Below, piece after piece: positions 6,553 to 55,412 of a stretch of 64,000 nt of DNA. Positions within the stretch are counted from its first letter, which is position 1. The number at the start of each line of letters is the position of its first letter. Origin of the DNA: an uncultured Oscillospiraceae bacterium (GTDB lineage Bacteria; Bacillota; Clostridia; Oscillospirales; Oscillospiraceae). Position numbers and translations under genes: made by a program. The stretch lies in NCBI GenBank assembly GCA_944385365.1, contig CALWWW010000008.1, positions 1-64,000 of the forward strand, written 5' to 3'. The notes beneath the pieces are model-generated. The model was not told the origin of the DNA, ran no database searches, and saw only the letters and a list, made by a program, of their open reading frames with translations.

Positions 6553-6926
6553 AAATAAAAAGTTTTACTCGATTTTTTTCAAAAAATCGCGGAGTCCAGA
6601 GGCAGCGCCTCTGGTCGCCCGTCGCAACGGGCGAAATCCCGCTGGCCGCAGCCAGCGAAACACCCGCGCCGCGCACGGCGCGAACTCCCCCATCGTCCCA
6701 AAGCGCCATCCGCAGATGGCGCAACCTCCACGGCGTCAGCCGTAAGGCCGCCGTCCCCACCCCATCGCGGGTGGCGGACGGCGGCCTTTTTGTACTCCAC
6801 ACCGTAGGGGGCGGCATCCTTGACGCGCCCATATTGCATTGCCATCCGGGGCCGTCAGGGATGCCGGCCCCTACATCGGTGGTAACCGGAGGACGTACCG
6901 GCGGCGGGGGCAAGCCCCCGCCCTAC
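6553..6926. repeat. Intergenic hairpin mosaic, block 2
   Basis: Lies between two convergent genes. Modules in order: AT-rich palindrome CGATTTTTTTCAAAAAATCG (6570-6589); CCAGAGGC/GCCTCTGG stem (6596-6614); three tandem small hairpins each followed by GAAA or GAA (6615-6690); CGCA-loop stem (6703-6722); long GC stem with T5 (6744-6791); GTAGGG-headed hairpin (6804-6830) with its inverted relative (6848-6874); and GGCGGGGGC hairpin (about 6903-6926). No gene is supportable. Bases 6927-7025 show nothing I can name. Confidence 0.85.
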
Positions 6927-29797: not shown

Positions 29798-31284
29798 TAC
29801 ACAAGGGCCTCCCGGACCACGTCGGTCATCTGCTGCTTCTCCACCACCTGGTCGAAGCGGCAGGCCTTGCCCTTGAGACCGGCCAGGGGCGCGGGGGCCG
29901 CCTTGCCGGAAACCTCCGCCAGCTGGTCGAGAATTTCCACGCCGCCCCGCTGGTCGGTGACGCCCAGAGCCGTCAGGACGCTGTCACAGAACTTGAAGGG
30001 GCTGGCCGTGGACACCACCACCGTGGGGGTGGCGTCGCCGGTGGCGGCCCGATGGTCCATCATCACCGTGTAGGCCACGGCGGTGTGGGTGTCCATCAGG
30101 TACCTGCCATGGCCGAAGACCTTGCCGATGGCGTTGGTGGTGCGCTCGTCGTCGCAGAAGCCGCAGAGGAAATTATCCTGGATTTTTTCCAGCATATCCT
30201 TGGAGACCTCATAGCGGCCCGTCTGGTTCAGCTGCTCCATGTAGCCCCGGACCTCGGCATCAGAACCGCTGAGCAGGTACAGCAGCCGCTCCAGGTTGGA
30301 GGAAATGAGGATATCCATGGAGGGAGAGATCGTATTGTGGAACGGACGGTTCCGGTCATAGATACCGGTGCGGATAAAGTCCGTCAGGACGTTATTGGCA
30401 TTGGAAGCGCAGAGCAGCTTGTCGATGGGCACACCCATGCGCTTGGCGTAGTAACCGGCCAGAATGTTGCCGAAGTTGCCGGTGGGGACGCAGAAATTGA
30501 TCTTGTCGCCCATCTGAATGTCGCCGCGCTTGACCAGCTCGGCATAGGTGGCCACATAGTAGACAATCTGCGGCAGAACGCGGCCCCAGTTGATGGAGTT
30601 GGCCGAGGACAGGAAATAGCCGCGGCCTGCCAGCTCCGCCCGCAGGGCTTCGTCGGAGAAAATCCGCTTGACGCCGGTCTGGGCGTCGTCGAAGTTGCCC
30701 ACCACGGCGCACACATCGACGTTGCTGCCCTCCTGGGTCACCATTTGCAGCTGCTGAATCTCGGAGACGCCGTCCTTGGGATAGAACACCATAATCCGGG
30801 TGCCGTCCACGTCGCGGAAGCCCTCCAGGGCCGCCTTGCCGGTGTCGCCGGAGGTGGCCACCAGGATGCAGGCGGTCTTCTCCTCGCCGGTCTTACGGAG
30901 GGATGCCGTCAGCAGATAGGGCAGCATCTGCAAGGCCATGTCCTTAAAGGCGCAGGTGGGACCGTGCCACAGCTCCAGAAAATGGGTCTTGTGGTGGGTG
31001 GAGTAGATGGGCGTCACCGCCGCGTCGTCAAACTTGCCGGGGACGGCGTAGGCCTTGGCGGCGTACTCCGCCAGCTCCTCCTCGGTGAATTCGTCCAGAT
31101 AGGCTTTCATGACCTTGACAGCCCGCTGCTGATAGGTCATGCCCACCAGGTCCTGCAAGTCCTGGGTGGTGAGCGCCGGAATGGTCTCGGGCAGAAACAG
31201 GCCGCCGTCGCGGCTCAGGCCCTGGACAATGGCCTGGGCGGCGGAGTAGCGGAGGGAGGAATCTCTGGTGCTGATGTACTGCAT
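29797..31284 (-). CDS. thrC: Threonine synthase
   Basis: PLP enzyme converting O-phosphohomoserine to threonine. 495 residues, the long form typical of this Clostridia/proteobacterial type. N-terminal YISTRD and DGGLFLPE (27-34), the PLP Lys in TCAFKDMA (K114), ATSGDTGKAA near 147-156, and FCVPTGNFGN further on. Of two ATGs six bases apart I prefer the second because GAGG then stands 8 bases away. The structured repeat at 31311-31463 ends 27 bp before the start and would lie in the sense orientation in the mRNA leader. Confidence 0.94.
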   Translation of the reverse strand: MQYISTRDSSLRYSAAQAIVQGLSRDGGLFLPETIPALTTQDLQDLVGMTYQQRAVKVMKAYLDEFTEEELAEYAAKAYAVPGKFDDAAVTPIYSTHHKTHFLELWHGPTCAFKDMALQMLPYLLTASLRKTGEEKTACILVATSGDTGKAALEGFRDVDGTRIMVFYPKDGVSEIQQLQMVTQEGSNVDVCAVVGNFDDAQTGVKRIFSDEALRAELAGRGYFLSSANSINWGRVLPQIVYYVATYAELVKRGDIQMGDKINFCVPTGNFGNILAGYYAKRMGVPIDKLLCASNANNVLTDFIRTGIYDRNRPFHNTISPSMDILISSNLERLLYLLSGSDAEVRGYMEQLNQTGRYEVSKDMLEKIQDNFLCGFCDDERTTNAIGKVFGHGRYLMDTHTAVAYTVMMDHRAATGDATPTVVVSTASPFKFCDSVLTALGVTDQRGGVEILDQLAEVSGKAAPAPLAGLKGKACRFDQVVEKQQMTDVVREALV

Positions 31285-31310
31285 GGTCATTACCTCTATT
31301 TCTTCTGGAC

Positions 31311-31463
31311 AGTCCCACATAATTGTGTCTGCGGTGGTCGCCGGGCCTTTTCCGCCATAGCTGCGGTGCGGCTTCTTGCCATACATCCAGTATGGCTGCG
31401 AATCCACACCTTGCTCTGACGAAAAATTCCTCGCCGACCACTCTTGCCAAATTATGTGGAACT
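31311..31463 (-). repeat. Structured repeat element, copy a (upstream of thrC)
   Basis: 153 bp. On the minus strand it has 14-nt ends AGTTCCACATAATT and AATTATGTGGGACT that pair with one G-U, then TTGGCAAGAG opposite CGCAGACACA, a second stem GTGGTCG/CGACCAC, a third stem GGTGTGGATT/AAGCCGCACC (one mismatch), and the apical hairpin CCATAC-TGGAT-GTATGG. Shares the core but not the stem sequences with copies b and c. Sense to thrC. Confidence 0.8.
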
Positions 31464-31512
31464 ATCCGTATTTATATATTATATCGTGTGTCGCGCTAAT
31501 TTCGTCGAACCC

Positions 31513-31875
31513 TCAGAAGGCGTTCTCCAAATGAATATATTTAGGTCGTTTGGTGTCCAAGCCCTGTGGGGCGTAGACCTCCACCACGTCGAAGCGGGGC
31601 TGCAAGTCCGTTTCCCGCTGGGACAGATACAGCAAAGCCGCGCTGCGGAGCCGTTCCTGTTTGCGGTGGTCCACATACTCCCGTGCCTCGGCAAAGCCGC
31701 TCCCGGCCCGGAGCTTCACTTCCACAAAGACCAAATAGCTCCCCTTTTGGGCAATCAGGTCGATTTCCCCGAAGCGGCACCGGTAGTTGGCCCCCACAAT
31801 CTCATAGCCCTTGTGCCGCAGATAGTCGGCGGCCCGGGCTTCACCCCATGGTCCCAGCAGATTGCTTCGCTTCAT
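31513..31875 (-). CDS. yraN: YraN-family (UPF0102) nuclease-fold protein
   Basis: 120 residues, full family length. The PD-(D/E)XK-like core is visible: GEARAADYL (about 10-18), [11 protein letters not shown] (about 35-45) and LVFVEVKLR (about 48-56), which give the D, E and K metal and catalytic positions. Biochemical role not settled for the family; often next to rnhB, as here. Its start lies 35 bp inside rnhB. Confidence 0.92.
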
Positions 31876-36036: not shown

Positions 36037-36530
36037 CTCCGTAGGTCGGGGGCTTGCCCCCGCCGTTGGCAGGGGGTTACGATTGCGCCGCAATGCACCG
36101 GACAACACGCCCGGTACCGCACGGCGGCACACGCAGGTGCCGCCCTACATACACAGACGAACTGCCGACATGGGACGTAGGGCGGGACCTATGTGTCCCG
36201 CCGCCGTGCTGCACTGCCGAGCACCACCGGCGTAGGGGCCGGCATCCCTGACGGCCCCGGATGGGGTGCGGTGTGGGCGCGTCAAGGATGCCGCGCCCTA
36301 CGGTGGGGTGTACAAAAAGGCCGCCGTCCACCACCCGCGATGGGGTGGGGACGGCGGCCTTACGGCTGACGCCGTGGGGATTGCGCCATCTGCGGATGGC
36401 GCTTTGAGACGATTGGGGAGTTCGCGCCGTGCGCGGCGCGGGTATTTCGCCCGCTGCGGCGGGCGACCGGGGACGCTGTCCCCTGGACCCCTGCGATTTT
36501 TTGAAAAAAATCGAGTAAAACTTTTATCTT
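36037..36530. repeat. Intergenic hairpin mosaic, block 4
   Basis: Lies between the aminotransferase promoter side and the thrS 3' end, in inverted order relative to block 2. Modules: GTAGG-headed CGGGGGC hairpin (36041-36064), GGCGGCAC and GGCGGGAC hairpins (about 36123-36205), GTAGGG pair (36233-36303), long GC stem (36316-36363), CGCA-loop stem (36388-36407), GAAA-tailed hairpins, GGGGAC/GTCCCC stem, and the AT palindrome (36499-36519), which ends 22 bp from the thrS stop. Bases 35884-36036 are AT-rich and probably hold the aminotransferase promoter. Confidence 0.85.
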
Positions 36531-41694: not shown

Positions 41695-42134
41695 AAAAGT
41701 TTTACTCGATTTTTTTCAAAAAATCGCGGTTTCCAAAGGCAGAGCCTTTGGTCGCCCGCCGCAGCGGGCGAAATACCCGCGCCGCGCACGGCGCGAAACC
41801 CCCTGTCGTCCCCAGCGCCATCCGCAGATGGCGCAATCCCGGCCAACGGCCATGACCCTCGCCGCCGCCCCTGTGGGGGTGGACGGCGAGGGTCATCAGT
41901 TGCAGTAACCGTTTCGTAGGACGCGGCATCCTTGACGCGTCGGGGGCGTATTCTGTCCGGGGCCGTCAGGGATGCCGGCCCCTACACCACTGGGAATGGA
42001 TAGCCCGTGCCAGCGGCGGGACACACAGGTCCCGCCCTACGGTCCATGTCGGCAGTCCGGCCAAGTTCCTACAGCGGTACCCGTGCCGCCGCACCATTAA
42101 ATCGGGCGCGCTGCAACGGTTCTGCAACGCGCCC
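41695..42134. repeat. Intergenic hairpin mosaic, block 5
   Basis: Between the sfsA start and the obg stop. AT palindrome (about 41707-41726), CCAAAGGC/GCCTTTGG stem, two GAAA-tailed hairpins, CGCA-loop stem (41816-41835), a long stem whose arms are ATGACCCTCGCCG and its complement instead of the AAGGCCGCCG type, GTAGGA-headed hairpin pair (41917-41983), GGCGGGAC hairpin (42015-42040), and the GGGCGCG hairpin (42104-42134), which ends six bases from the obg stop. No gene. Confidence 0.85.
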
Positions 42135-46580: not shown

Positions 46581-47285
46581 GTAGGGCGGGACCTGCGTGT
46601 CCCGCCGTGCAGCAACCCTGGCGGTTACTGGACAGCACCGGGGCGAATCCGCATCCACATCCGTAGGGCGCGGCATCCCTGACGCGCCCCTGGCACAATT
46701 TGTCCGGGGCCGTCAAGGATGCCGGCCCCTACGTTGTTGTTGGTCGATGGTGCATACCAGCGGCGGGACACATAGGTCCCGCCCTACGTCCATTGTTGGT
46801 GGTGCGTTTGTGCTCATGGGCTGGCAGATGGTCCCCGCCGCCCACCCCCACAGGGGGCGGCGGTGGGGGCCATGGCCTTTGGCCGGGGATTGCGCCATCT
46901 GCGGATGGCGCTTCGGGGCGCTTGGAGGTTTCGCCCGCTGCGGCGGGCGGGTGTTTCGCGCCGTGCGCGGCGCGGGTATTTCGTCTGCTGCGGCGGACGA
47001 CCAAAGACTCTGCCTTTGGAAACCGCGATTTGGGCAACGCGCCGCCGGTTGGCAAGAGGTGTCGGCGAGGAATTTTGTGTCAGAGCAAGGCGCAGCTTTG
47101 CAGCCATACTGGATGTATGGCAAGAAGCTGGGCCGCAGCTATGGCGCAAAAGACCCGGCGACACCCGCAAACACACCGGTGGTAAGTTGCCCCACAGAAA
47201 AAAATCGAGTAAAACTTTTATCTTTTTTCCCATTACCGCCAAATTGCGAAACAGGGCGCACTGCAAACCCGGTTGCAGTGCGCCC
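46581..47285. repeat. Intergenic hairpin mosaic, block 6 (contains element copy b)
   Basis: Between the apeB start and the nfnB stop. GTAGGG-headed GGGAC hairpin (46581-46606), GTAGGG pair (46662-46733), GGCGGGAC hairpin (about 46762-46787), long stem of the ATGGCCCCCG class (about 46826-46874), CGCA-loop stem (46893-46912), GAAA-tailed hairpins, CCAAAGGC stem (46998-47020), then element copy b interrupting the AT palindrome, and finally GGGCGCACTGCAA/TTGCAGTGCGCCC (47254-47285) 15 bp from the nfnB stop. Bases 46456-46580 presumably carry the apeB promoter. Confidence 0.85.
47031..47194 (+). repeat. Structured repeat element, copy b
   Basis: 164 bp. Ends TGGGCAAC/GTTGCCCCA, then CCGCCGGT/ACCGGTGG with one G-U, TTGGCAAGAG opposite CGCAAACACA, GGTGTCG/CGACACC, GGCGCAGCTT/AAGCTGGGCC (one mismatch), apical CCATAC-TGGAT-GTATGG. 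Inserted in the AT palindrome of block 6. Antisense to nfnB. Confidence 0.8.
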
Positions 47286-54587: not shown

Positions 54588-55412
54588 AAAAGTTTTACTC
54601 GATTTTTTTCAAAAAATCGCAGGGGTCCAGGGGGCAGCGCCCCCGGTCGCCCGTCGCAGCGGGCGAAATTCCCGCTGGCCGCAGCCAGCGAAACACCCGC
54701 GCCGCGCACGGCGCGAAATGCCCCTGTCGTTCAAAGCGCCATCCGCAGATGGCGCAATCCCCGGCCAAAGGCCATGGCCCCCGTCGCCGCCCCCTGCGGG
54801 GGTGGACGGCGGGGGCCATCCATTTCACCCAGCGTAGGGGCCGGCATCCCTGACGGCCCCGGACGGAATACTCCATGAACGCGTCAAGAATGCCGCGTCC
54901 TACGAAACGGTTACGCATTCGCCCCCATGCGCCGGTCAACGCCACCCAGTGCGGCGCGGCGGCACACACAGGTGCCGCCCTACGAACACGGACGAACTGC
55001 CCCGCATGGTTTGTGGGGCGGGTACGTCATCGGGCACGGTACGACATAAGGCCGCCGCCCACCACCCGCTGACGGGGTGGGGACGGCGGCCTTCGGCTTT
55101 GCCGGAGATTGCGCCATCTGCGGATGGCGCTTTAGACGATTAGGGATTTCGCCCGCTGCGGCGGGCGGGTATTTCGCGCCTTGCGAGGCGCGACCAAAGG
55201 CTCTGCCTTTGGAAACCGCGATTTGGGCAACGCACCGCCGGTTGGCAAGAGGTGTCGGCGAGGAATTTTGTGGCAGAGCAAGGCCCAGCTTCGCCGCCAT
55301 ACTGGATGTATGGCAAGAAGCTGGGCCGCAGCTATGGCGCAAAAGGCCCGGCGACACCCGCAGACATACCGGCGGTAAGTTGCCCCACAGAAAAAAATCG
55401 AGTAAAACTTTT
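54588..55412. repeat. Intergenic hairpin mosaic, block 7 (contains element copy c)
   Basis: Between convergent genes. Holds two mosaic halves: 54588-54910 (AT palindrome, CCAGGGGGC stem, GAAA-tailed hairpins, CGCA-loop stem, long stem of the ATGGCCCCCG class, GTAGGG pair) and 54955-55412 in reverse order (GGCGGCAC hairpin, long AAGGCCGCCG stem at 55047-55093, CGCA-loop stem near 55108-55130, GAAA-tailed hairpins, CCAAAGGC stem, element copy c). The whole block is roughly a head-to-head arrangement ending at the stop codons of both flanking genes. No gene. Confidence 0.85.
55224..55387 (+). repeat. Structured repeat element, copy c
   Basis: 164 bp, best-paired copy: TGGGCAAC/GTTGCCCCA ends, CCGCCGGT/ACCGGCGG perfect, GGTGTCG/CGACACC perfect, GGCCCAGCTT/AAGCTGGGCC perfect, and the CCATAC-TGGAT-GTATGG tip. 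Its flanks are nearly the same as those of copy b. Confidence 0.82.

Follow-up and report, generated by a model that had tools for sequence, protein, structure and literature searches.

The window analyzed here, a stretch of 64,000 nucleotides from an uncultured Oscillospiraceae bacterium, contains three copies of a long hairpin whose paired segments differ between copies on both sides of the stem, and this raises the question of whether the hairpin is a structured RNA, a mobile element, or both. Copy 1 (31307..31467, minus strand) stands alone, with an outer stem that starts GGATAGTTCCACATAAT; copy 2 (47032..47192) and copy 3 (55225..55385), both on the plus strand, each lie within a modular hairpin repeat. 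The first-pass annotation had placed all three correctly and assigned them 153-164 bp, but their paired ends go a few bases beyond its limits, giving 161 bp each. The changes that it had reported on both sides of the outer, middle, and inner stems are all in the sequence, although one inner-stem pair is broken in copy 2, which has GGCGCAGCTT opposite AAGCTGGGCC. Of the segments that it had called fixed, TCAGAGCAAGG reads GCAGAGCAAGG in copy 3. A conserved core of 127 nt is common to the three copies, at 31324..31450 on the minus strand (134.3 bits with covariance model R2), 47049..47175 on the plus strand (125.9 bits), and 55242..55368 on the plus strand (130.4 bits). A covariance model whose training sequences include the window's own three copies found only these three in the window at E<=5. 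With five bases added on each side, copy 1 has a folding energy of -93.3 kcal/mol (z = -11.7), a value that none of 200 shuffled sequences equaled.

The earlier claim that no protein gene accompanies any copy is true for the element itself, but copy 1 does adjoin genes: a UPF0102 gene ends on one side of it and the threonine synthase gene starts on the other, which places it in the threonine synthase leader. It is found at the same place in three of the seven genomes of the genus, and inspection by eye of the 420 bases upstream of threonine synthase in the other four revealed no copy. No consensus promoter or terminator was found in the copy 1 region (31200-31620), and no target duplication is visible at any of the window's three copies. 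The element was expected to match no known Rfam family, and this was confirmed, with no matches over the window and none over the element that reached the Rfam 15 gathering threshold. Five matches from a relaxed scan over copy 1 all scored below gathering, and a relaxed scan of locus L003 gave none over the element copy present there. The Streptococcus model SpF59_sRNA scored above gathering in that locus (L003:3157-3186, minus strand; cut by the locus end) and was rejected as the identity of the element, as the match sits 1.5 kb away from it. We found no published description of the element; the list of 3161 candidates of PMC8040213, a source available in part, may contain the motif.

A blastn search of the window's own genome with copy 2 gave 41 matches, counting partial ones. 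Of the other six genomes in the genus, two gave blastn matches (19 in one and 34 in the other), and a third, G003, has two matches by covariance model. A first model built from 32 own-genome cores matched 84 of 200 genomes of the family, representing 56 of 106 genera. A second model, built from 46 sequences, matched 90 of 245 genomes of the order, in 49 of 127 genera, and 15 of 398 genomes drawn from the phylum, 11 of the 15 being outside the order. Copy numbers in these three surveys are lower bounds because at most 17, 14, and 8 candidates, respectively, were scored per genome. A scan of named genomes with the apical 22-base motif yielded at least 120 stretches; Oscillospiraceae appears in 43 of the 80 titles listed, and Oscillibacter, Colidextribacter, Butyricicoccus, Angelakisella, or Ruminococcus, and also Roseburia or Bacteroides, in a few. 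Copy 2 had no blastn match in phages and the element of genome G032 had none in plasmids; viral contigs provided three copies, each cut by a contig end. The three copies are members of a large, apparently undescribed family of short mobile elements in Clostridia.

The element is mobile. Perfect 4-bp direct repeats are present at the outer ends of 26 of 71 copies from other genera, 14 more have 3 of 4 positions identical, 20 have 2 or fewer, and no boundary was found for 11, in a count that permitted several boundary choices per copy. In genome G032, all 13 copies read have perfect 4-bp duplications, always at the same boundary. Their sequences are TTAG, TTAA, CTAA, CTAG, CTTG, and CTTT; nine of the 13 are not palindromic, and 10 fit YTAR, the other three being CTTG or CTTT. 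Outside G032, perfect duplications occur in just 13 of 58 copies. Reading by eye revealed duplications around 9 of 11 elements in genome G140, among them four of six internally deleted forms of 63-129 bp, suggesting that the complete fold is possibly dispensable for movement, or that it was lost after insertion. Some short forms (L086:811-857, L075:1409-1455, L304, and L312) retain little beyond the ends and the terminal internal loop; those with both ends read are 63 and 77 bp long. A search with end patterns identified 154 left ends in the G032 genome and, in G140, 163 end matches, while the reversed pattern gave 0 in both and 0 to 3 in seven other genomes searched. Outside the order the ends are quite different, with CTAG on both sides in loci L149, L150, and L152 (by eye). 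At one insertion locus of genome G102, the element is absent from G822, G825, and G827, whose intergenic DNA is too diverged from that of G102 for the exact joint to be read. The flanks of one G102 copy (query 1-361) are themselves highly repeated intergenic sequence in G102 contigs: this query has 132 matches in G102, and most among the matches listed fall in the flanks.

Ends that are mostly GG..CC, outer stems of about 16 bp, and YTAR-like 4-bp duplications characterize the copies, and insertion sequences of the IS5 family duplicate YTAR targets (PMC10359306, in the part consulted). An insertion sequence of 1150 bp in G140 (L115:1352-2501, a locus picked for its transposase and then read for its ends) has the ends GGCAGCACCGCACAAT and GGCAATACCGCACAGA and a CTAA duplication, and its transposase belongs to IS5 according to NCBIfam NF033581 (331.5 bits, cut-off 140) and to Pfam. 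A second, similar insertion sequence in G198 has the end GGCACCACCGCACAAT and the flanks CTAA and ATAA. Outer stems that match either IS5 end at 13 or more of 16 positions were found in 16 of 74 hairpin copies, from 10 genomes (five of the copies are from G102), compared with 0 of 15,000 in a shuffled control. The first-pass annotation had held that a match to the ends of insertion sequences would speak against a structured RNA of a new kind; such a match exists for the outer stem of these 16 copies and not for copies 1 to 3 of the window, and no insertion sequence was identified whose ends match the other end types, the window's included. The IS5 ends of G140 differ from the ends of the G140 hairpins read. 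With the IS5 protein as the query, 7 of 34 genomes matched. The domain PF01609 was not found in G000, G006, G032, G102, and G129, five of the seven draft genomes searched, which is weak evidence because draft assemblies lose repeats. The 30-40 end bases displayed for the two IS5 elements do not contain the conserved folded core, and there is no autonomous element with the core among the G140 end matches listed; one promising pair of G140 ends about 1.9 kb apart turned out to be two separate elements. IS701 makes 4-bp duplications and was also considered as the mobilizer; it was rejected, as PF13546 was found in none of nine genomes. The 4-bp duplications, together with the IS5-like ends of some copies, argue for an IS5-like miniature element that is non-autonomous, and against a plain RNA gene.

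Selection on a fold had been proposed from three copies, and two larger alignments bear it out, with covariation above controls and a bias to one strand. In the first (A4), made by aligning 78 sequences to the model, pairing is seen in 94.1% of the cells and 592 are changed on both sides, compared with 145 in shuffled and at most 161 in slid controls. The second (A7) contains 70 matches, 69 of them distinct, from 70 of the 120 motif-found stretches, so that not every stretch is represented; 90.8% pair, and 666 double changes compare with 210 in shuffled and at most 175 in slid controls, i.e., about three times the shuffled value. As the apical motif used for collection fixes the apical stem, the change seen in A7 is located in the remaining stems. 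Internal loops with mismatches are kept across genera, and outside the order the inner loops are recognizable by eye, with loss of the terminal GGCAAGAG loop of the core. The unusual feature of the element is that it is conserved inside and varies at its ends, which differ outright outside the order. Within the family this contrast is modest, with a mean identity between cluster representatives of 0.62 in the core compared with 0.53 in the outer 17 bases, where the value is the best of three shifts and thus flattered. At a locus common to G102 and G822, reading by eye revealed two double changes (A-U to U-A and G-C to A-U) and one wobble between the copies; these differences may have arisen by gene conversion from another copy.

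If only double-stranded DNA mattered, G-U and A-C combinations should be equally frequent on the modeled strand. Among all 40 pairs of 34 cluster representatives of A4 we counted 55 G-U and 23 A-C, and among all pairs of 52 clusters of A7 we counted 129 and 43, one probably misaligned pair holding 18 of the A-C in each set. At well-formed pairs, defined as at least 80% Watson-Crick by a filter that was added after the 55 versus 23 of A4 had been seen and was then used unchanged on A7, the counts were 28 versus 1 (32 pairs of A4) and 45 versus 17 (A7). The excess of G-U indicates selection on one folded strand and argues against template switching from arm to arm as the sole cause of the compensations. 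It fits RNA and single-stranded DNA alike, RNA being most simply the strand concerned. The sense strand also folds better than the antisense strand in 34 of 34 and 51 of 51 cluster representatives, an excess that we discount as independent evidence because the copies share ancestry.

Gene context was analyzed for 81 copies with long flanks, taken from the 120 motif stretches, some of them from the same genome, with a simple ORF caller. Eleven copies are co-directional with both neighbors and 19 are opposite to both (p = 0.20); 11 are between convergent and nine between divergent genes, 18 are inside predicted frames, 11 are far from genes, and two have no neighbor on one side. The absence of a preferred orientation leaves a fixed cis role in mRNA unsupported for the family as a whole. 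An early co-directional excess came from a crude and noisy ORF count with short flanks (20 co-directional and 8 opposite in other genera, 5 and 8 in the own genome) and was not repeated in the 81-copy count.

These observations are probably best explained by a MITE-like element of the IS5 type that moves by cut and paste and whose core persists as a folded strand, for which RNA is the simplest candidate. The variable outer stem would represent the terminal inverted repeats, and an IS5-family DDE transposase acting in trans would cut and paste the element, generating the 4-bp YTAR-like target duplication. The core of about 127 nt would be retained since one strand forms a long hairpin that is interrupted by recurring internal loops; this strand would most simply be RNA formed when a copy is transcribed, and the likeliest role of the folded transcript would be to protect or tune the flanking mRNA, as reported for the NEMIS and ERIC elements discussed below. 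Of the two possibilities first proposed, a structured RNA or the single-stranded DNA of a hairpin-type mobile element, mobility thus holds and the one-strand bias supports the RNA half, while RNA alone does not account for the element. A structured non-coding RNA, or a riboswitch-like leader regulator of which copy 1 is the functional form and the others spread by accident, would agree with the deep covariation, the one-strand bias, and the retention of copy 1 in three of the seven genomes of the genus. It is nevertheless quite improbable, given the lack of a preferred orientation, the target duplications, the IS5-like ends, and the threonine synthase leaders of the four other genomes of the genus, which by eye do not have the element.

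Two further readings were considered. Quasi-palindromes can be corrected by template switching between their arms during replication, and a passive palindromic MITE could in this way acquire compensations with no selection on a fold. Near-identical G032 copies that differ by matched changes and the persistence of deleted forms are in line with such a process, but it predicts strand symmetry and the erasure of mismatches, whereas G-U exceeds A-C at well-formed pairs in both alignments and the internal-loop mismatches persist across genera; we regard it as very unlikely. The alternative of a hairpin formed by single-stranded DNA, in an intermediate of transposition or replication, is somewhat less remote, though still unlikely. 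G-T wobbles are tolerated in DNA too, so that neither the wobble excess nor the sense-fold excess separates DNA from RNA, and the lack of gene-orientation bias would also suit single-stranded DNA. However, 4-bp duplications suit double-strand DDE transposition and not the route of IS200/IS605-type elements, which insert without target duplication. Beyond the IS5-type reading preferred here, one may speculate, with considerable doubt, about a transposon parasite that has an RNA at its center: its inherited unit would be the folded core, which would act in trans, as RNA, to promote its own mobility or survival, and its terminal repeats would have been swapped repeatedly to use different IS5-type transposases as it spread through the order and beyond.

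Judged by their descriptions in sources available in part, the nearest known kinds are bcr1, ERIC, and NEMIS. The repeat bcr1 resembles the element as a MITE-like intergenic repeat of about 150 bp that is often in transcribed untranslated regions (PMC2267715, PMC3446304) and is described as specific to the Bacillus cereus group. ERIC of enterobacteria (also IRU or RU-1), of about 127 bp, is likewise intergenic and dispersed with one long stem-loop, and has an orientation-dependent effect on mRNA stability (PMC2229807, PMC2267715). Its description sets it apart by TA termini and 7-bp terminal inverted repeats (PMC2229807), whereas the element has GG..CC ends and 4-bp duplications. NEMIS, or Correia elements, of Neisseria are miniature insertion sequences of about 107 and 155 bp, and RNase III is proposed to cut the hairpins that their transcripts would form; they are set apart, again by description, by 24-bp terminal inverted repeats and TA termini (PMC2229807), the element having host-variable ends and no TA termini. 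REP sequences are palindromes of 20-40 bp (PMC3733652), in contrast to a hairpin of about 160 bp. The palindromic candidate structured RNAs of gut bacteria in PMC8040213 are also similar, but Bacteroidetes are the main or sole source of the four palindromic RNAs discussed in the part consulted. The element shares with IS5-family insertion sequences and their MITEs the ends and the 4-bp YTAR duplication, and such IS5 elements occur in the same bacterial family; IS5 insertion sequences have a transposase gene, unlike the element.

Bacterial MITEs are usually recognized by their ends and show little internal constraint; in this element the inside fold is kept over many genera while the ends vary. 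With more than 150 end matches each in G032 and G140, many of them at contig ends in one of the two, the elements appear to fragment the genome assemblies of common gut and rumen bacteria, and Rfam has no model for the element. Should the fold function as RNA, the family would naturally allow one to test whether a mobile element can be driven or protected by a structured RNA.

In the window's genome, most copies are carried by a second kind of repeat. We read 36 near-full copies with their flanks, excluding partial copies at contig ends, and by eye 31 of them, one cut by a contig end, form the 3' tip of a larger multi-hairpin repeat, between CGATTT and AAAAATCGAGTAAAACTTTTA; copy 1 and four others (L024:176, L033, L036, and L037) stand alone. 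In the window, such repeats are found on the plus strand at 46829..47218, with copy 2 in the terminal CGATTT...AAATCG hairpin, and at 55048..55411, with copy 3 in the terminal hairpin, both with approximate limits. Unloaded repeats, which end in a plain hairpin of the CGATTTTTTGAAAAAAATCG type, occur at 36317-36524 (plus strand) and at 54589-54818, 41696-41838, about 21725, and 6559-6788 (all minus strand). As most own-genome copies occupy repeat tips and other repeats are unloaded, copies 2 and 3 represent cargo in the modular repeat. One own-genome copy (L024:6662-6763) has lost the middle of its core by deletion. The modular repeat itself (46829-47218, 55048-55411, and loci L009-L034) contains, by eye, a run of short TTTCG-led hairpins, variable in number, whose stems differ among otherwise similar repeats with pairing apparently kept, and these hairpins may constitute a separate system of shuffled hairpin cassettes.
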